This document shows, piece by piece, positions 9,036 to 58,298 of a stretch of DNA of 64,000 bases. The notes under the pieces were generated by a model. It had not been told where the DNA came from and did no database searches. It saw only the letters and a program-made list of their open reading frames with translations. How positions within the stretch are numbered: the first letter of the stretch is position 1; each line of letters opens with the position of its first letter. The translations under genes and the position numbers were made by a program. The DNA is from Eubacterium ventriosum. GTDB taxonomy: Bacteria; Bacillota; Clostridia; Lachnospirales; Lachnospiraceae. The DNA lies in the NCBI RefSeq assembly GCF_025150745.1, contig NZ_CP102282.1, positions 1,437,501-1,501,500 of the forward strand, read 5' to 3'.

Positions 9036-9262
9036 TCGCAAAATTTTTGTTTTCTCCGCTCATCAGGAAAATTCTATCGCAAACACGTTGATTTTATCAT
9101 TTTGCTCCGCCGCCTATTGTAAAACAAAAATCAAAACTCGCTGACGCTCAGACAGTTGATTTTTGCTTTACGCTATGCTCGCAAAATTTCAAAAATCTGC
9201 CTATTGTTTGCTTCTAGAGTTTTCCTGATGAACGGAATAACAAAACAAAATATTTTGCGATA
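9036..9262 (+). repeat. Structured dispersed element, copy 1
   Basis: It starts directly after the dehydrogenase stop and fills most of the gap to the next gene. Outer arms TCGCAAAAT... (9036) and ...ATTTTGCGA (to 9260) pair; a second helix joins TCATCAGGAAAA (9060-9071) with TTTTCCTGATGA (9220-9231). Inside are two conserved blocks shared with the copies near 55.7 and 56.6 kb: AAACACGTTGATTTT followed by ATTTTGCTCCGCCGCCTAT (about 9081-9118), and CTATGCTCGCAAAATTTC followed by TCTGCCTATTGTTT (about 9173-9209). A central hairpin pairs CAAAAATCAA (9125-9134) with TTGATTTTTG (9156-9165). The helices differ between copies but stay paired. Confidence 0.8.
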
Positions 9263-36011: not shown

Positions 36012-36280
36012 ATATGGAAATGCGTAGAAGAAAAGGAGTAGCAGATAACCTTTTAAAGAGAGAGAGGGACGGTGGAAGCCTCTTAAAGCAGTGTCTGTGA
36101 AGGTAGTTTTGGAGCAGAGATGATGAATTGAGTAGTTGTCTACGGTTCGTCCCCGTTACAGGATATGATAAGTGAAAGATAAAGGTGGTACCGCGAGCAA
36201 TCGCCCTTTATGCGGTACCGGCATTATACATAAGAAAGTCGTGCTGATACTGCAAAGGAGAGCACGACTTTCGTATTTGT
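36012..36280 (+). promoter_or_regulatory. T-box riboswitch, valine-specific, upstream of valS
   Basis: T-box AAAGGTGGTACCGCGA at 36181-36196; the antiterminator pairs AAAGG with CCCTTT (36204-36209). The discriminator TGGT fits a tRNA ending ACCA (A73), as tRNA-Val has. In the specifier region, GAAGGTAGTTT offers GUA (36103-36105). A strong hairpin follows: GAAAGTCGTGCT (36234-36245) and AGCACGACTTTC (36261-36272), but its T-run is weak (GTATTTG). GGTACCGC within the T-box also pairs with GCGGTACC at 36212-36219, a second way to hide the T-box. Confidence 0.87.
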
Positions 36281-49755: not shown

Positions 49756-51947
49756 TGCTGAATATTTTTAGAATATTTATTGGGGATTTGAAAAAAATCA
49801 GCAGAAATGCAATAGCGTGGATTGTAGTGTTAGGACTTACTGTAGTTCCATCTCTTTACGCATGGTTCAATATTGCTGCAAGCTGGGATCCGTATAGCAA
49901 TACCGACCAGTTAAAAGTTGCAGTGGCAAGCGTTGATAAAGGCTATGAGGGTGACATTATTCCAATAAGCTTAAATCTTGGGAATCAGGTTATATCAGCT
50001 CTTCGTGAAAATACTCAGCTTAATTGGGTGTTTACTGATAAAGAAGATGTAATTGACGGTGTAAAATCAGGAAAGTATTATGCTTCAATTGTAATTCCAA
50101 AGAATTTTAGTACCGATATGATGAGCCTTTTCTCTGATAATGTTTCTCATTCGGATATTATTTATTATCTTAATGAAAAGGAAAATGCCATTGCTCCAAA
50201 GATAACTGACAAGGGAGCAAGCGCAGTTCAAAAGCAGATTGATCAGGTTTTTACAAAGACAGTTTCAGAGATTTCAATAAGCGTGCTTGATCAGTTGTCA
50301 GATGTTATGGATGATGATACAACAAAAACTGTAATGAACAAGGTTCAGTCTAATGTGCAGCAGATTGCAGATGACTTAAATGATGCAAAACAGACTGTTT
50401 ATGCTTTTGCTGACCTTACAGGTTCTTTGGAAGAAATGTTAGACAGTACATCAACATTATTAAAAACGTCAGGAGACAGCACAAAGGATAGCGTTAATAC
50501 TTTAAAAACTTCAAGTACTGATGTAACAGATTTGAAAGATGCCTTAAGTGGAACAACTGATGGAATAAACAAGGCGTTAAATCAAAGCGAATCTGCATAT
50601 AATCAATTATCAAAAGAAGTGGATAATATTTTTGACTCAGTGTCCACAAGTGCAGACACAGCATCAAAAGGTTTAAGTGGTCTTGCAACTCAGGTAGATG
50701 ACATAACAAAGAAGTACACTGAATTTAAAGAAAGCCTTCAGAAAGTGCAGAATGCATTGCCGGCAAATGAGAAAGTGTTAAGAACTGAAATTGACAAAAT
50801 TATTGGTAAAATAGACCAGTCAATTATTCAGCAGAAGGAAATTAGAACAAAATTAAAAAACGCTTCTGATGATATAACATTGGTATCAGGAACGACAACT
50901 TTATATAGAAAAGACTTAAAGAAACAGATAAAACAAAGTGCAAAGGATATATCTTCTATTCAGGATTCTTATGAAAAGAAGGTTCAGACTAACTTAACTA
51001 AGTTGGTTAATTCACTTACTGTAAATAATGGCTCAGTATCAAAAGTTGTAAACAATTTAAATCAGGGAACAAGTGATGTAAGTAAGCTTGCAGGAGATTC
51101 AGGAGCACAACTTGGACAGTTAAAGAAGATTCTTAAAAATTCAGGTAAAGCACTTGGAAAGGCATCCAAAAATGTAAGCAATATTTCATTTAAATTAGGC
51201 AATAGTGAAAACAGCGATGCAACAGAATTGCTTAAAAACATATTAAGCAACAGCCCTGACACATTAAGTTCATTCTTGTCATCACCTGTAAAGATGAACA
51301 CAAATGTTATATACAAAGTAGATAATTATGGCTCTGCAATGGCACCATTCTACTCAACACTTGCAATATGGGTAGGTGGTATTGTATTAGTAGCAATGAT
51401 GAAAGTAACATTAGAGGAAGATCGAAAGAAACAACTATTCAATGTGAAAAACTATCAGATATATTTAGGACGTTATATTCTGTTTATGATAATAGGATTG
51501 TTCCAAAGTGGATTAATCTGTTTGGGAGATTTGTATTTCTTAAAGATACAATGTGAGCATCCGTTCCTGTTCCTATTAGCAGGCTGGATATCAAGCATAG
51601 TATATGTAAATATAATCTACACATTAACAGTATCCTTTGGTGATATAGGAAAAGCAATCTGTGTAATATTTCTTGTAGTACAGGTAGCAGGTTCAGGTGG
51701 AACATTCCCAATAGAAGTAGCACCAAAATTCTTCAGAACAGTATACCCATTACTTCCATTTAACTACAGCATGGGAGCAATGAGAGAAACAATAGCCGGA
51801 ATGTATGGAAACACATACTGGACAGAAATATCCAAACTACTATTATTCCTAATACCGTCACTAATACTGGGATTAATACTAAGAAAACCAATAATAAAAC
51901 TAAACAACTTCGTAATAGAAAAACTAGAAGAAACAAAACTCATGTAA
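49755..51947 (+). CDS. YhgE/Pip-family membrane protein, second paralogue
   Basis: 730 aa. Same architecture as the gene before it, and clearly homologous: SLYAWFNIAASWDPYSNTDQ at the N-terminus, YLNEKENAIAPKITDKGAS, an extracellular stalk, NYGSAMAPFYSTLAIWVGGI at the first C-terminal membrane helix and VAGSGGTFPIEVAPKFFRTV further on. It lacks the extra ~100-residue C-terminal region of the first copy. The ribosome site GGAGATGAGG lies within the first copy's end. The two may form a heteromeric complex. Confidence 0.87.
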   Translation: MLNIFRIFIGDLKKISRNAIAWIVVLGLTVVPSLYAWFNIAASWDPYSNTDQLKVAVASVDKGYEGDIIPISLNLGNQVISALRENTQLNWVFTDKEDVIDGVKSGKYYASIVIPKNFSTDMMSLFSDNVSHSDIIYYLNEKENAIAPKITDKGASAVQKQIDQVFTKTVSEISISVLDQLSDVMDDDTTKTVMNKVQSNVQQIADDLNDAKQTVYAFADLTGSLEEMLDSTSTLLKTSGDSTKDSVNTLKTSSTDVTDLKDALSGTTDGINKALNQSESAYNQLSKEVDNIFDSVSTSADTASKGLSGLATQVDDITKKYTEFKESLQKVQNALPANEKVLRTEIDKIIGKIDQSIIQQKEIRTKLKNASDDITLVSGTTTLYRKDLKKQIKQSAKDISSIQDSYEKKVQTNLTKLVNSLTVNNGSVSKVVNNLNQGTSDVSKLAGDSGAQLGQLKKILKNSGKALGKASKNVSNISFKLGNSENSDATELLKNILSNSPDTLSSFLSSPVKMNTNVIYKVDNYGSAMAPFYSTLAIWVGGIVLVAMMKVTLEEDRKKQLFNVKNYQIYLGRYILFMIIGLFQSGLICLGDLYFLKIQCEHPFLFLLAGWISSIVYVNIIYTLTVSFGDIGKAICVIFLVVQVAGSGGTFPIEVAPKFFRTVYPLLPFNYSMGAMRETIAGMYGNTYWTEISKLLLFLIPSLILGLILRKPIIKLNNFVIEKLEETKLM

Positions 51948-52115
51948 CTCACCAACCCCCGGAACTTTCAAGGCACCTGTGCTTGCACAAAGGTGCCTTG
52001 AAAAGTTTCGGGGGTGCCTTATTATGAGCATAAAAGGGCGACGAAGTCGCACGATATGCGAATAATAAGGACAGATTGCGGGAGCGGGAAGCGCGTAGCA
52101 ATCTGAGGTGAGTTA
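51945..52115 (+). ncRNA. Multi-helix structured element (possible RNA or dispersed repeat)
   Basis: A closing helix TAACTCACC (51945-51953) with GGTGAGTTA (52107-52115) encloses three arms. Arm 1: CCCCCGGAACTTTCAAGGCA (51956-) pairs with TGCCTTGAAAAGTTTCGGGG (to 52014), one bulge. Arm 2: CCTTATTAT (52017-52025) with ATAATAAGG (52062-52070), holding GCGAC/GTCGC (52038-52050). Arm 3: CAGATTGC (52072-52079) with GCAATCTG (52098-52105). The closing helix begins at the stop codon of the YhgE gene. Arm 1 may also stop transcription. Whether it acts as RNA or DNA is open. Confidence 0.6.
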
Positions 52116-54279: not shown

Positions 54280-55623
54280 TTATTTATTTTCATTATCTTC
54301 CTTAGGAACAACTGTTTCCATATTTTTTGGAAGAACAAGATTTAAAATAATTGATACGATAAATACTACAGCAACACAGTTTTCTGCAAATACATTTTCG
54401 ATAATCTTAGGGAAAATGCTAAAGATTTCAGGAACCTGTGTGAAGCCGATACCAATACTAAGTGAAAGTGCGGCAATTGTAATATTACGCTGTGAGTAAC
54501 CGCAGTTGCTAATCATCTGAAGACCGCTGATTACGATTGTACCAAACATCATAAGTGTACATCCACCAAGTACTGCGTCAGGAAGTGTTGCAAGTAAAGC
54601 ACCAAAGAATGGGAAGATACCTGCAATAATCATAATAATTGCACCTGTTGCAATAGCAAATCTGTTAACTACTTTAGTCATGGCAACAAGACCTACATTC
54701 TGGCTGAAAGATGTAATTGGTAAACATCCGAAAACAGAAGATAAAGCACTGATGAAACCGTCACAGGCAATAGAACCTGAAGTTTCTTTTGTTGTTACGT
54801 CCCTATTTAAGCCTGAAGCTGCAAGAGCAGAAGTATCTCCGATAGTTTCAGTAGCAGAAACTAAGAAAATTAAAATAACAGAGAAAATTGCGTTAGCATT
54901 AAATTCAGGTTTAAAAGGCATTAATGAAGGTACTGCAACAATAGAAGTTTCTGAAAGTGAAGAAAAATCAACAACTCCCATAAATACAGCAACAATATAT
55001 CCTACAATAAGTCCAAACAAAACAGAAAGCTGTTTGAAATATGATTTTGCCAAAATATTAAAAATAATACATGAAAGCAATGTTATAGTTCCGAGAATCC
55101 AGTTTGTAGCTGAACCAAAGTTTTCGCTTCCGCTTCCTCCACCGAAAGAGCTTGCTCCAACAGAGAGAAGAGAAAAACCAATGGAAGTAACAACGCTGGC
55201 TGCAACGATAGGAGATATAAGTTTAATCCAGTATTTTGCAAAAAGACCAAGAACACCTTCTACAATACCGCCAACAAGAACAGCACCTACAATGGCATTA
55301 TATCCGTAAGTTGGTCCGATATAACAAAAAATAGAAACAAAAGTAAAACTAATACCCATAACAATTGGAAGACCTGAACCGATTTTCCATAATGGGAATA
55401 ACTGAATTAAAGTACCAATACCTGCAATAATCATTGCACTCTGGATAAGACGTGCAGTCTGTGCAGATGAAAGACCGCTGGCACCGCCAACAATAATAAT
55501 AGGAGCAATATTGGCAACAAACATAGCCAAAATATGCTGCAAGCCAAAAGGAATGGCTTTTCCAACGGGAACTTTTCCGTTGAGTTTGTAAATGTTTTCA
55601 ATTGATGAATTTGAGCTACTCAT
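54280..55623 (-). CDS. pbuX: Nucleobase:cation symporter-2, probably xanthine permease
   Basis: 447 aa, about 12-14 membrane helices. The family signature QNVGLVAMTK fits Q-N-x-G-x-x-x-x-T-[RKG], typical for purine (xanthine/urate) rather than uracil members. GLQHILAMFVANIAPIIIVG is at the N-terminus. The start at 55623 (MSSSNSS) has AAAGGA about 8 bases upstream; the frame could begin 18 bases earlier without a ribosome site. It lies downstream of xpt on the same strand, as in the xpt-pbuX operon of Bacillus, but is separated from it by a terminator and a structured element. Confidence 0.85.
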   Translation of the reverse strand: MSSSNSSIENIYKLNGKVPVGKAIPFGLQHILAMFVANIAPIIIVGGASGLSSAQTARLIQSAMIIAGIGTLIQLFPLWKIGSGLPIVMGISFTFVSIFCYIGPTYGYNAIVGAVLVGGIVEGVLGLFAKYWIKLISPIVAASVVTSIGFSLLSVGASSFGGGSGSENFGSATNWILGTITLLSCIIFNILAKSYFKQLSVLFGLIVGYIVAVFMGVVDFSSLSETSIVAVPSLMPFKPEFNANAIFSVILIFLVSATETIGDTSALAASGLNRDVTTKETSGSIACDGFISALSSVFGCLPITSFSQNVGLVAMTKVVNRFAIATGAIIMIIAGIFPFFGALLATLPDAVLGGCTLMMFGTIVISGLQMISNCGYSQRNITIAALSLSIGIGFTQVPEIFSIFPKIIENVFAENCVAVVFIVSIILNLVLPKNMETVVPKEDNENK

Positions 55624-55660
55624 TAGTAAATGTCCTTTCATAATTTAAATATATTGTGTA

Positions 55661-55894
55661 ATAGCAAAACAAAATTTTTCTTCCTTCTATTCCACAGAAT
55701 TGTATAACGCAAACACGTTGATTTTCTTATTTTGCTCCGCCGTCTATGGCAAATCGAAAAGTGAAACTCGTCTACGGCTTGGACAGTCACTTTTCGACTT
55801 GCACTATGCTCGCAAAATTTCGAAAATCTGCCTATTGTTTGTTTTCATACAATTCTGTGGAATATAAGATGATATATAAATTTTGTTTTGCGAT
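55661..55894 (+). repeat. Structured dispersed element, copy 2
   Basis: Same orientation as the copy at 9036. Outer helix TAGCAAAACAAAATTT (55662-) with AAATTTTGTTTTGCGAT (to 55894). The second helix is a perfect TATTCCACAGAATTGTAT (55688-55705) with ATACAATTCTGTGGAATA (55847-55864). Conserved blocks AAACACGTTGATTTT plus ATTTTGCTCCGCCG, and CTATGCTCGCAAAATTTC plus TCTGCCTATTGTTT. Central hairpin GCAAATCGAAAAGTGA (55749-55764) with TCACTTTTCGACTTGC (55787-55802). Helix sequences are unlike copy 1, yet pairing is kept. It fills the space between xpt and pbuX. Confidence 0.85.
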
Positions 55895-55945
55895 TAAAAA
55901 ATATAAACTATAAGAAACGTGGTGTTTCTCATAGTTTATGATTTT
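55893..55945. terminator. Terminator of xpt, usable in both directions
   Basis: AAACTATAAGAAAC and GTTTCTCATAGTTT form a 14-bp stem (one mismatch) around GTGGT, with A/T-runs on both sides (AAAAAATAT left, ATGATTTTTT right). Confidence 0.85.
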
Positions 55946-56527
55946 TTACTGTTCACGGAATGTGATTGTTCCGTTTTCTGCATCCATGCTATCAACGATA
56001 GCAAGTGATTCCAAGTGATATCCAAGGTTACGGATTGTACGTCCGCCTGACTGAAATCCTTTTTCAATTGCAATGCCGATTCCTTCTACAGTACCGCCTG
56101 CATTTGATACGATGGAGATTAATCCCTGAAGAGCACAACCGTTAGCAAGAAAATCGTCTATAATAAGAACGTGGTCATCAGGACCTAAAAATTTCTTTGA
56201 TACGATTACCTGGTTTTTGCATTTATGCGTAAATGATTCAACTTCAGCAACATACATTTCACCATCAATGTTTATACTTTTTGATTTCTTTGCAAAAACA
56301 ACTGGTGCATCGAAGTATTTTGCAACGATGCAGGCAATGCCGATACCTGATGCTTCTATTGTAAGAATTTTGTTGATTGGGGCATTAGCGAAACGACGCT
56401 TAAATTCTTCGCCCATTTTTTCGAAAAGTGAAATGTCCATCTGGTGGTTTAAAAAGCTGTCTACTTTTAAAACATTTCCTTCTTTAACGATACCATCTTT
56501 TTGAATACGTTCTTCTAAAAAATTCAT
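55946..56527 (-). CDS. xpt: Xanthine phosphoribosyltransferase
   Basis: 193 aa, the Bacillus Xpt length. PRPP loop [18 protein letters not shown] with the acidic pair, [30 protein letters not shown] near the N-terminus and [20 protein letters not shown] near the end. It converts xanthine and PRPP to XMP for purine salvage. The start has AAAGGAGACAG upstream on the minus strand. No purine riboswitch is visible in front of it, unlike B. subtilis; the leader is occupied by the structured element at 56553-56762. Confidence 0.94.
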
Positions 56528-56552
56528 TTCTGTCTCCTTTGTAAAAATTAAT

Positions 56553-56762
56553 TACCTTTTCAGACTCCGCTCACGCAGAAATTTCTAAAAGGAAACAATA
56601 GGCAGAGTTTTGAAATTTTGCGAGCATAGTGTAAAGCGATAAACCTACTGTTCGAGCCTTTAGGCGAGTTTAGGTTTTCGCTTTACAATAGGCGGCGGAG
56701 CAAAATAATAAACTCAACGTGTTTACTTTAGAAATTTCTGCGTGAGCGGAATGAAAAAGTGC
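56553..56762 (-). repeat. Structured dispersed element, copy 3, inverted
   Basis: Opposite orientation to copies 1 and 2. The long helix is a perfect TCCGCTCACGCAGAAATTTC plus TAAA (56566-56589) with its complement (56727-56750). The conserved blocks appear on the minus strand (AAACACGTTGAGTTT, ATTTTGCTCCGCCGCCTAT, CTATGCTCGCAAAATTTC, CTCTGCCTATTGTTT). Central hairpin GTAAAGCGATAAACCT (56631-56646) with AGGTTTTCGCTTTAC (56672-56686). It lies between putP and xpt, 25 bases upstream of the xpt start. Confidence 0.85.
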
Positions 56763-56777
56763 TTTGTTTTTATTTGA

Positions 56778-58298
56778 TTAATAATTTTTTATTGATTCAA
56801 ATTCGTCTACGATTTCTTTTTCAGGTGCAGGTGTAAGTAAGCTTACTATTACGATGAAGATTGAAGCTACAATGAATGCAGGTAAAAGTTCATAGATTCC
56901 AAGTACGCCACCCATTGGACGAACTAAGAATTTCCATACGAATACCATGATTCCACCGGCTACCATTCCGCTGATTGCACCGTATTTGTTTGAGCGCTTC
57001 CAGAATAATGCAAAGAGCATTACAGGGCCGAATGTGGCACCGAAGCCTGCCCAGGCAAATGATACTATCTGGAATACTGAGCTGTTAGGATTACTAGCAA
57101 GAAACATAGCAATTATTGAAATGATAATTACTGAACCTCTGGCAACTACGATTTTTACTCCTGCTGAAAGGTTTAAATTTAACACGCCTTCAAGTAAGTT
57201 TTCTGAAACACTTGAAGATGCAGCAAGAAGCTGTGAATCTGAAGTTGACATTGTTGAGGCAAGTATACCTGCAAGGATAACACCTGCAATTATGGCAAAA
57301 ATAATGCCGTGTGTACTTAATACGTGGGCTATCTGAACGATGATTGTTTCAGAATCCTTTAGGTTAGGAATAACTCCTTCTGCTGACATTGCATAACCGA
57401 TTATACCAATTGAAACTGCAACAGACATTGAAATAACAACCCAAACACTGGCAACACGTCTTGAAAGTTTTAATTTCTTTGTGTCTTCAATAGCCATAAA
57501 TCTTAAAAGAATATGTGGCATGCCGAAGTATCCAAGTCCCCAAGCAAGTGTTGAGGCAATTGAAAGAACACTGTAAGGCGTTGCTGTATTAGTTGCACCA
57601 TCATGTGTTGAAGTTATTGAAAGGAATCCCTTAAGGTCGCCAACGTGAGCTACGACTCCGTCAAATCCACCAACGGAAATAATTCCATAACTTAAAACTA
57701 TAACTAAGGCAATTGACATAATAATACTCTGAATAAAGTCAGAAGTACTTGCGGCAAGGAAACCACCAAGAGTAGTATATGCAACAATAACAATTGCACT
57801 AATAATCATTGCTGTTAAATAATCAACTCCAAATAAAGAATTAAAAAGTTTACCACATGCAGCAAATCCTGAGGCTGTATATGGCACAAAGAAAATAATA
57901 ATAATTATAGCAGATACACACTTTAACATTTTAGGATCTCTATATCTGTTAGCAAAAAAGTCAGGTATAGTGATTGCACTGCAAACGTCACTGTAAGTTC
58001 TAAGTCTTTTGGCAACAATAAGCCAGTTAACGTATGTTCCAACAGCAAGTCCGGCAGCTGTCCAGAATGCATCACAAACACCTGTAACATAAGCAACACC
58101 CGGAAGTCCCATTAATAACCAGCTACTCATATCTGATGCTTCAGCACTCATAGCAGTAACAAGAGGACCAAGCTTTCGTCCACCAAGGTAAAAATCATTT
58201 GTGGTACTGTTTTTTTTGGCAAAATATACACCAATACCAACAACGCCAACCATATAAACAATGATGGCAATTAAAATTCCAATTTCTGATGTAGTCAT
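56778..58298 (-). CDS. putP: Sodium/proline symporter
   Basis: 506 aa, solute:sodium symporter family with about 13 membrane helices. FYLGGRKLGPLVTAMSAEAS then DMSSWLLMGLPG is the conserved PutP N-terminal region; STSDFIQSIIMS and STMSTSDSQLLAASSSVSEN carry the sodium-site serines/threonines typical of proline carriers. The start at 58298 follows AAGAAGGGAAAAAAA on the minus strand. It is divergent from spoVAD and lies upstream of xpt on the same strand, with a structured element between the two. Confidence 0.92.
   Translation of the reverse strand: MTTSEIGILIAIIVYMVGVVGIGVYFAKKNSTTNDFYLGGRKLGPLVTAMSAEASDMSSWLLMGLPGVAYVTGVCDAFWTAAGLAVGTYVNWLIVAKRLRTYSDVCSAITIPDFFANRYRDPKMLKCVSAIIIIIFFVPYTASGFAACGKLFNSLFGVDYLTAMIISAIVIVAYTTLGGFLAASTSDFIQSIIMSIALVIVLSYGIISVGGFDGVVAHVGDLKGFLSITSTHDGATNTATPYSVLSIASTLAWGLGYFGMPHILLRFMAIEDTKKLKLSRRVASVWVVISMSVAVSIGIIGYAMSAEGVIPNLKDSETIIVQIAHVLSTHGIIFAIIAGVILAGILASTMSTSDSQLLAASSSVSENLLEGVLNLNLSAGVKIVVARGSVIIISIIAMFLASNPNSSVFQIVSFAWAGFGATFGPVMLFALFWKRSNKYGAISGMVAGGIMVFVWKFLVRPMGGVLGIYELLPAFIVASIFIVIVSLLTPAPEKEIVDEFESIKNY

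Follow-up and report, generated by a model that had tools for sequence, protein, structure and literature searches.

REP elements are mobilized as folded single strands, and the ends of MITEs consist of shared inverted repeats with target duplications. One REP superfamily is marked by a GTAG tag at the foot of the hairpin, as described in PMC3733652, and inverted repeats and target duplications are both named in a review on bacterial MITEs (PMC10969869). The attC-like motif OTH-22-1 has been reported from several phyla, according to its description in PMC8632094. Hairpins are also subject to a mutation process referred to as template switching. As presented in PMC8604942, template switching between inverted repeats leads to arm homogenization and spacer inversion together, and PMC8794818 argues that hairpins, those of RNA genes included, can arise and persist through this process.

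The window considered here, a 64,000-nucleotide stretch of the Eubacterium ventriosum genome (contig NZ_CP102282.1, positions 1,437,501 to 1,501,500), possesses three hairpin elements. Copies A and B are located on either side of xpt (xanthine phosphoribosyltransferase; 55946-56527, - strand) in opposite orientation, which confirms a preliminary description of two ~210-230-bp elements flanking this gene. Copy A is placed between the end of xpt and the start of a xanthine permease gene (54280-55641, -). On the other side, the start of xpt and the 3′ end of a PutP-like symporter gene (56778-58298, -) enclose copy B. The third copy in the window that had been mentioned at that stage was found at ~9036-9261 (copy C). 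The features are as follows.

55661..55897, + strand: copy A, whole hairpin element, from inverted-repeat and fold evidence; its core, 55709-55842, is a covariance-model match (genome 1493209-1493342, +)
55684..55705, + strand: left outer arm of copy A, pairing with 55847-55868 (95%)
55847..55868, + strand: right outer arm of copy A, pairing with 55684-55705
55764..55787, + strand: tip of copy A, AAACTCG..CTTGGACAGT, a variant of the tip motif, from sequence and alignment
56550..56762, - strand: copy B, whole hairpin element, outer limits set by eye; its core, 56591-56726, is a model match (genome 1494091-1494226, -)
56566..56589, - strand: outer arm of copy B, pairing with 56727-56750 (100%)
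56727..56750, - strand: other outer arm of copy B, pairing with 56566-56589
56647..56671, - strand: tip of copy B, AAACTCG..CTCGAACAGT, a variant of the tip motif, from sequence and alignment
9036..9261, + strand: copy C, whole hairpin element, outer limits set by eye; its core, 9079-9211, is a model match (genome 1446579-1446711, +)
9134-9156, + strand: tip of copy C, AAACTCGCTGACGCTCAGACAGT, from sequence

Copies A and B each form one long hairpin with internal loops and are about 210-237 bp in size. All four of the internal blocks previously quoted as nearly identical are present in both copies, and the outer helices do differ between copies while remaining paired: they comprise 22 nt at 95% complementarity in A and 24 nt at 100% in B, with unlike sequences. 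RNA folding yielded z-scores of -10.95 (A) and -11.92 (B), none of 200 shuffles being equally good for either copy, and the corresponding DNA values were -9.90 and -9.79. Allowing up to 2 mismatches, the sequence ATTTTGCTCCGCCG is matched 3 times in the window, versus 0.21 expected. The only matches at Rfam gathering score in the window are a Clostridiales-1 RNA (51947-52113, +) and a T-box leader (36016-36211, +). A short, near-perfect hairpin with runs of A and T (55896-55946), located between copy A and the end of xpt, is probably the xpt terminator.

The element is short, non-coding and multicopy. In the window's own genome (G000; a single contig of 2,856,089 bases), a covariance model with a core of ~135 nt has 33 matches, with E-values down to 1.5e-39; 3 of these are short or broken and weaker. 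The model (R1) was built from an alignment (A1) of 25 own-genome copies. A simple pattern occurs at 32 places in this genome versus 2 for the reversed pattern, and 29 of the 30 places retrieved were judged by eye to be real copies. Omitted from A1 are four short or broken copies (L010, L018, L021, and L028), one place that is not a copy (L029), and copies later found by the model. By eye, two of the short or broken copies seem to have arisen by deletion between CTAT repeats located in the internal loops. When 60 genomes, the own included, were searched with R1, matches were obtained in 7, and the expectation that a covariance-model search would reveal more copies was thereby borne out, with 33 in the genome and further ones in 6 others. 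Under strict filters, 5 of 22 congeners, many with incomplete genomes, had 1-2 matches each and 17 had none; G032, from another genus, had 3.

Elsewhere, xpt occurs independently of the element. Seven strong xpt matches were found in six congener genomes (G003, G009, G011, G018, G020, and G021), all of which are without a match to the element model, and no purine riboswitch reached gathering score in the window or at the eight xpt loci scanned (the own and the seven of congeners). The suggestion of a barrier or insulator around xpt is not supported, given these seven congener matches in genomes devoid of model matches, nor is the notion that the element takes the place of a guanine riboswitch, since the congener loci lack the element and show no purine riboswitch that reaches gathering score. 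A special tie to xpt also has to be corrected: of the 33 matches in the genome, three are in the window and just two flank xpt. The gene is an incidental neighbor, and the flanking pair would represent two insertions among 33.

The tip of the hairpin, AAACTCG-[2-14]-CTCARACAGT, has a much wider distribution. It was found in 12 of 200 genomes of the family (one per genus), with 96 matches versus 2 for the reversed pattern. Two genomes from another genus of the same family, G061 and G246, possess 36 and 20 tip matches, respectively. A scan of species genomes gave at least 117 stretches with the tip, 80 of them titled. The ten bases flanking the tip on each side pair at ≥7 positions in 88 of 122 genome matches among those listed, compared with 5 of 63 viral-contig matches and 20 of 2000 cross-paired controls under the same rule; this count is of unselected matches, excluding those with <10 nt of flank. 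By stretch, 84 of 117 among the matches listed pass the rule, 56 of which are titled. The titles include Nitrospirae, Bacteroidetes groups (Pontibacter, Rufibacter, Cellulophaga, and Elizabethkingia), Firmicutes groups, Proteobacteria, desulfobacterial groups, Leptotrichia, Gastranaerophilales, and Gracilibacteria/Parcubacteria, which we take to represent about eight phyla. Single taxon assignments may be wrong, since many of the genomes are metagenome bins; several are isolates. Judged from their tip and layout, these hairpins may form one superfamily of a single lineage.

In 81 elements, the six positions next to the tip are without sequence preference; preferences occur at positions 7, 9, and 11 on the left and 7 and 10 on the right, and pairing falls from about position 9 outward. 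The preferred positions are probably those of the next internal loop, about one helical turn away. As these elements, and the 92 from the wide scan and family search, were picked for paired flanks, the high pairing adjacent to the tip is partly due to selection. The median arm length is 75 nt in the 92 elements from the wide scan and family search. A second family of giant hairpins was noticed by eye in G061 and G246 (L356, L357, L358, and L401), with a tip region of GAAAAGCCGGGTTCAGG...CCTGAACCCGGCTTT or close variants. Its members stand partly on similar lower stems, at sites matching first-family copies, and L356-L358 have no Rfam match at threshold.

Likewise, no family of Rfam 15 matches any element at its threshold, in the window or at the further loci scanned, and the element is thus unclassified in Rfam, as had been supposed. 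A single weak match was obtained, for the relic hairpin of L359, with mir-6794 (27.2 bits against a threshold of 74, E 0.29). Among the matches listed in a search of open full-text papers outside bioRxiv, no description of the element was found, nor was any paper found that contains one of six exact tip strings.

The pairing of the stems is maintained despite changes in sequence. In A1, 96.8% of cells are paired and 22 of 42 pairs change on both sides. There are 111 double-changed cells, versus 31.6 ± 5.0 in shuffles (0 of 500 as high), and covariation, raised earlier as a mark of the element, is therefore statistically supported. One-sided standard changes, i.e., those of the G-U type, account for only 4 cells.

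The kind of mismatch is informative here, as an RNA should favor G-T mismatches on one strand. Isolated stem mismatches number 58 G-T and 82 A-C in 63 of the 92 wide-scan and family elements (those above a score cutoff; ten family loci, L073-L082, are among the 92), 51 and 65 in 55 elements of G061 and G246, and 23 and 38 in 30 elements of the own genome. Pooled, this amounts to 132 G-T and 185 A-C (p 0.003), for three sets that overlap slightly in sharing at least two elements, one from the own genome and one from G061. For comparison, a small sample of 24 tRNAs from the fetched loci, read by geometry, had 12 G-T and 0 A-C mismatches; an ARAGORN-based control excludes mismatches by construction, and the geometry count was used instead. 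The A-C excess would fit a weak bias toward the opposite strand, yet it is far from the tRNA pattern.

A similar coupling is observed in the outer arms. In 29 of 30 own-genome copies, complementarity within the copy exceeds the 95th percentile seen for cross-copy pairs, as it does in all 32 of the 55 G061/G246 elements that have a recognized boundary. Between copies, the arms are scarcely conserved: identity is 0.49 versus 0.43 for shuffled arms in the own genome, where the cores are 0.835 alike, and 0.60 versus 0.52 over the outer 45 nt in G061 and G246, where the cores are 0.882 alike.

By comparison of flanks, eleven loci were found to be shared by G061 and G246 (for four of these, a single flank aligned), and a twelfth (L303/L332) was added. 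Eight orthologous element pairs, seven from G061/G246 and one from the window's genus, contain 727 unchanged base pairs, 64 that are changed on both sides and still paired, 32 with a single change (5 G-T, 5 A-C, and 22 other), and 5 that are doubly changed and unpaired; G246 is listed with 7% contamination. The resulting double/single ratio of 2.0 compares with 0.02-0.15 in ten mis-registered controls with partners shifted by 1-8 bases. The doubly changed pairs represent 7.7% of those compared, which is of the same order as the single-site divergence of the flanks (5-20%). An excess of double changes is what one would predict where single-step copying carries a mutation from one arm to its partner. 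The effect is most evident at L293/L335, with 15 double and 0 single changes in 120 pairs. It rests on the other genus, since L065/L069, the sole contribution of the window's genus to the total, shows 0 double and 3 single changes in 65 pairs. Kept outside the total were L291/L344 (40 gapped pairs), L313/L318, L353/L294, L295/L338, and the more distant comparisons with L068, which gave 6-7 double and 12-13 single changes. The L303/L332 locus, lost by de-duplication from the eleven-locus comparison, contributes no changes to these counts. It is 98.7% alike over 2.6 kb between G246 and G061, with an element identical over 240 nt, compared with 81-95% for most of the remaining shared loci; either transfer or misplacement of a contig could account for this likeness.

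Two other origins of the outer arms were considered and rejected. The idea that they are pre-existing terminators arose from one locus where, by eye, several relatives have a plain terminator-like hairpin and three species have the element. Several copies are, by eye, without a T run, and L061 has a perfect outer arm of 54 bp. The idea that they are inverted target duplications was dropped because the arms in G061 and G246 retain a weak shared pattern, about half of the elements share ends, and the site in G061 that corresponds to L305 is not empty but holds a relic retaining portions of both arms.

In several cases the core of the element is inverted at a fixed locus. At L301/L342 and L293/L335, the core is inverted against its flanks, the copies being 0.947 alike one way and 0.713 the other at the former, and 0.960 and 0.753 at the latter. 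The window's genus provides a further example, in which the flanks of L068 (G008) align one way with those of L065 (G004) and L069 (G010) and the element aligns the other, with core identities of 0.867 versus 0.66-0.68. Inversion is less sure at L306/L398 (0.753 vs. 0.64), where the G246 copy is without an exact tip, and L295/L338 is ambiguous (0.72 vs. 0.61) since the copies differ. Orientation is kept at nine other G061/G246 loci and at L065/L069. Taken together, the covariation, the double changes in orthologs, and the core inversions point to arms that copy each other in DNA, rather than to a selected RNA.

As for mobility, no clean empty site was found among the part of the copies compared in both directions between G061 and G246, and insertion is for this reason deduced from copy numbers. 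The compared sites held relics (L359; L396, with the core gone; L397, with the tip lost), other giant hairpins (L358 and L400), and unalignable DNA. L396 is a palindrome with perfect arms of ~60 bp where the relative has a full element. No target duplication was seen at a few ends read by eye. No transposase was recognized in the best 15 protein clusters near 89 loci, the largest of which consists of ABC-type ATPases (13 loci). A blastn search of plasmids and phages with the core of copy A, from which records near the own genome may have been excluded, gave no match.

Shared ends are nevertheless apparent in about half of the 55 G061/G246 elements, with [AG]GGGCCGG on the left in 28 and CT[AG]C[TA][TC]T on the right in 30, outside or at the foot of the hairpin. 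Such ends argue for defined units and leave a REP-like kinship open. Read from the opposite strand, the right end forms a GTAG-like foot in about half of these copies; by eye, this tag was not noticed in the window copies. A Y1 transposase, the enzyme type associated with REPs, is encoded by 6 of 13 carriers of the element; the other 7 lack a match, among them the own genome with its 33 copies. Of 15 non-carriers, 9 possess one. G061 and G246 have one Y1 gene each, ~2.7 kb from an element (L310 and L299). Within 3.3-3.4 kb around these genes, neither an inverted repeat with a 12-nt exact arm nor a tip was found. The Y1 genes of G237 and G032 (L410 and L411) have short palindromes containing GGGGACGGAG nearby, and together these likely represent an ordinary REP system.

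With respect to neighboring genes, 23 of 30 own-genome copies lie between tandem genes, 4 between convergent genes, and 3 between divergent genes. At the 23 tandem sites, the motif strand has the same sense as the genes in 8 and the opposite sense in 15, and this mixed orientation excludes a fixed sense in the own genome. The orientation classes are -- 11, -+ 9, +- 7, and ++ 6 in G061, and -- 9, ++ 8, and +- 3 in G246. The mixed-phylum set (++ 25, +- 22, -- 12, -+ 7, and 27 unplaced, where +- is convergent and -+ divergent) leans towards gene ends. None of the cores of the 30 own-genome copies lies inside an ORF of ≥90 aa, although two abut one. ORFs of ≥100 aa cross the tip in 5 of 36 G061, 5 of 20 G246, and 6 of 93 mixed elements, and are perhaps chance frames. 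A preference for one replication strand was set aside: by hand count in the own genome, the motif strand is on the lagging side in 20 cases and on the leading side in 13, which is not far from even. The short copies L018 and L021 were counted along with the model matches, of which two near skew switches were omitted, leaving 31 of 33.

These observations are best accommodated by a family of non-coding giant DNA hairpins that behave as REP/MITE-like, non-autonomous mobile DNA, with arms coupled in DNA and loops read by a protein, a reading to which a probability of roughly 0.6 may be given. Of the three options in the preliminary description, the non-autonomous mobile element with a hairpin core is thus the best, with insertion deduced from copy numbers. 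In each unit, the tip (AAACTCG-stem-CTCARACAGT) and the internal loops are conserved, and the sequence of the helices that hold them is free. During replication, one arm would template the other by template switching, such that the arms change together, and the same process could also invert the core. Arm copying should erase the internal loops, and their persistence suggests that something reads them; a protein that does so would keep both the loops and the tip. That the element is abundant in one species and nearly absent from its sisters suggests spread, which probably would proceed via the folded single strand. Since no mobility gene was recognized near the 89 loci, the mobilizing enzyme would be encoded elsewhere and act in trans, and it may have been lost from the own genome. 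A bacteria-wide superfamily of such mobile hairpins, with protein-read tips and loops and with helices all free to vary because one arm can rewrite the other at every replication or transposition, forming a new class beside REPs, MITEs, and attC, is a more tentative proposition that we consider doubtful at present.

An explanation in which the hairpin acts in a transcript, as a structured non-coding or cis-regulatory RNA whose loops bind a protein or ligand, would account for the strong covariation, the conserved loops, the RNA fold z near -11, and the near avoidance of ORFs by the own-genome cores (two of 30 abut one). Genes of the mixed-phylum set also run more often with the motif (++ 25) than against it (-- 12), and template switching alone does not exclude RNA function, because the process also acts in RNA genes, as presented in PMC8794818. 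The unclassified structured RNA of the preliminary description, and with it selection for a folded RNA, is nonetheless not supported by the changes themselves: one-sided standard changes of the G-U type are nearly absent (4 cells vs. 111 double), and A-C mismatches are at least as frequent as G-T. Moreover, sense at own-genome tandem sites is mixed (8 same and 15 opposite of 23), no fixed neighbor gene was seen, no Rfam family matches at threshold, and cores flip at fixed loci, which together render an RNA rather improbable. It is also unlikely that the elements are a DNA structure useful to the host, such as a device for chromosome organization, a bidirectional transcription end, or a signal for replication or recombination, preserved by its function and only slow to spread. 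A tip common to several phyla, intergenic placement, the greater number of gene ends than starts facing the element in the mixed-phylum set, and the locus with a terminator-like hairpin in several relatives and the element in three species (by eye) are in keeping with such a role, and loops and pairing could likewise be preserved by selection if the DNA structure had a role in the cell. Against it stand a patchy distribution (12 of 200 genomes, one per genus; 17 of 22 congeners with none), a copy number that varies widely between relatives, and the absence of conservation around xpt.

The mobile hairpin might instead be a giant relative of REPs that is moved by the REP-associated tyrosine (Y1) transposase. 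The shared ends (28 left and 30 right of 55), the GTAG-like foot, and the single Y1 genes of G061 and G246 at ~2.7 kb from an element would suit this idea, which is very improbable given the 33 copies in a genome without a Y1 match, the 7 of 13 carriers that lack the gene and 9 of 15 non-carriers that have it, the lack of any such hairpin directly beside the Y1 genes of G061 and G246, and the other, short palindromes beside those of G237 and G032. Finally, chance or an alignment artefact, i.e., AT-rich palindromes with look-alike blocks, would have nothing in its favor except the low G+C of the region, and with 0 of 200 shuffles folding as well, 33 matches with E down to 1.5e-39, and reversed-pattern controls of 2 vs. 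32 in the own genome and 2 vs. 96 in 200 family genomes, it can be neglected.

A DNA hairpin with one and the same tip, present in genomes titled from about eight phyla, sometimes in dozens per genome, and unmatched in Rfam, represents a gap in the catalog of bacterial repeats. It also holds a warning for those who hunt for RNAs, in that textbook covariation can come from arms that copy each other in DNA. Signs that separate DNA from RNA in such cases are the lack of G-U steps, mismatch parity, orthologous double changes without singles, and flipped cores. A protein that reads the tip, once found, would make the mechanism testable.

In comparison with known systems, the elements resemble REPs and REPINs with their RAYTs in being extragenic, multicopy, non-coding palindromes, as these are described in PMC2817692, PMC3116915, and PMC3733652. 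REPs, however, are 20-40 bp long, whereas the present hairpins are ~190-350 nt and conserved at the tip and internal loops, not along the stem; and REP/RAYT systems carry a Y1 transposase, whereas the window's genome is without a Y1 match. With the bacterial MITEs reviewed in PMC10969869 they share a short, non-autonomous, hairpin-forming nature, but unlike MITE terminal repeats their outer arms differ between copies (0.49 vs. 0.43 shuffled in the own genome). As with attC and OTH-22-1 (PMC8632094), a folded DNA strand is at issue; the hairpins described here differ in their length and in having several internal loops. The inverted repeats of the template-switching literature are alike in arm homogenization and paired changes, and in spacer inversion as reported in PMC8604942, but in PMC8604942 and PMC8794818 template switching is presented as a mutation process in yeast genes and RNA genes, whereas here it would act on a repeated, conserved element. 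The hairpins appear to be a previously undescribed form of non-autonomous palindromic repeat, with a real chance of constituting a class of their own.
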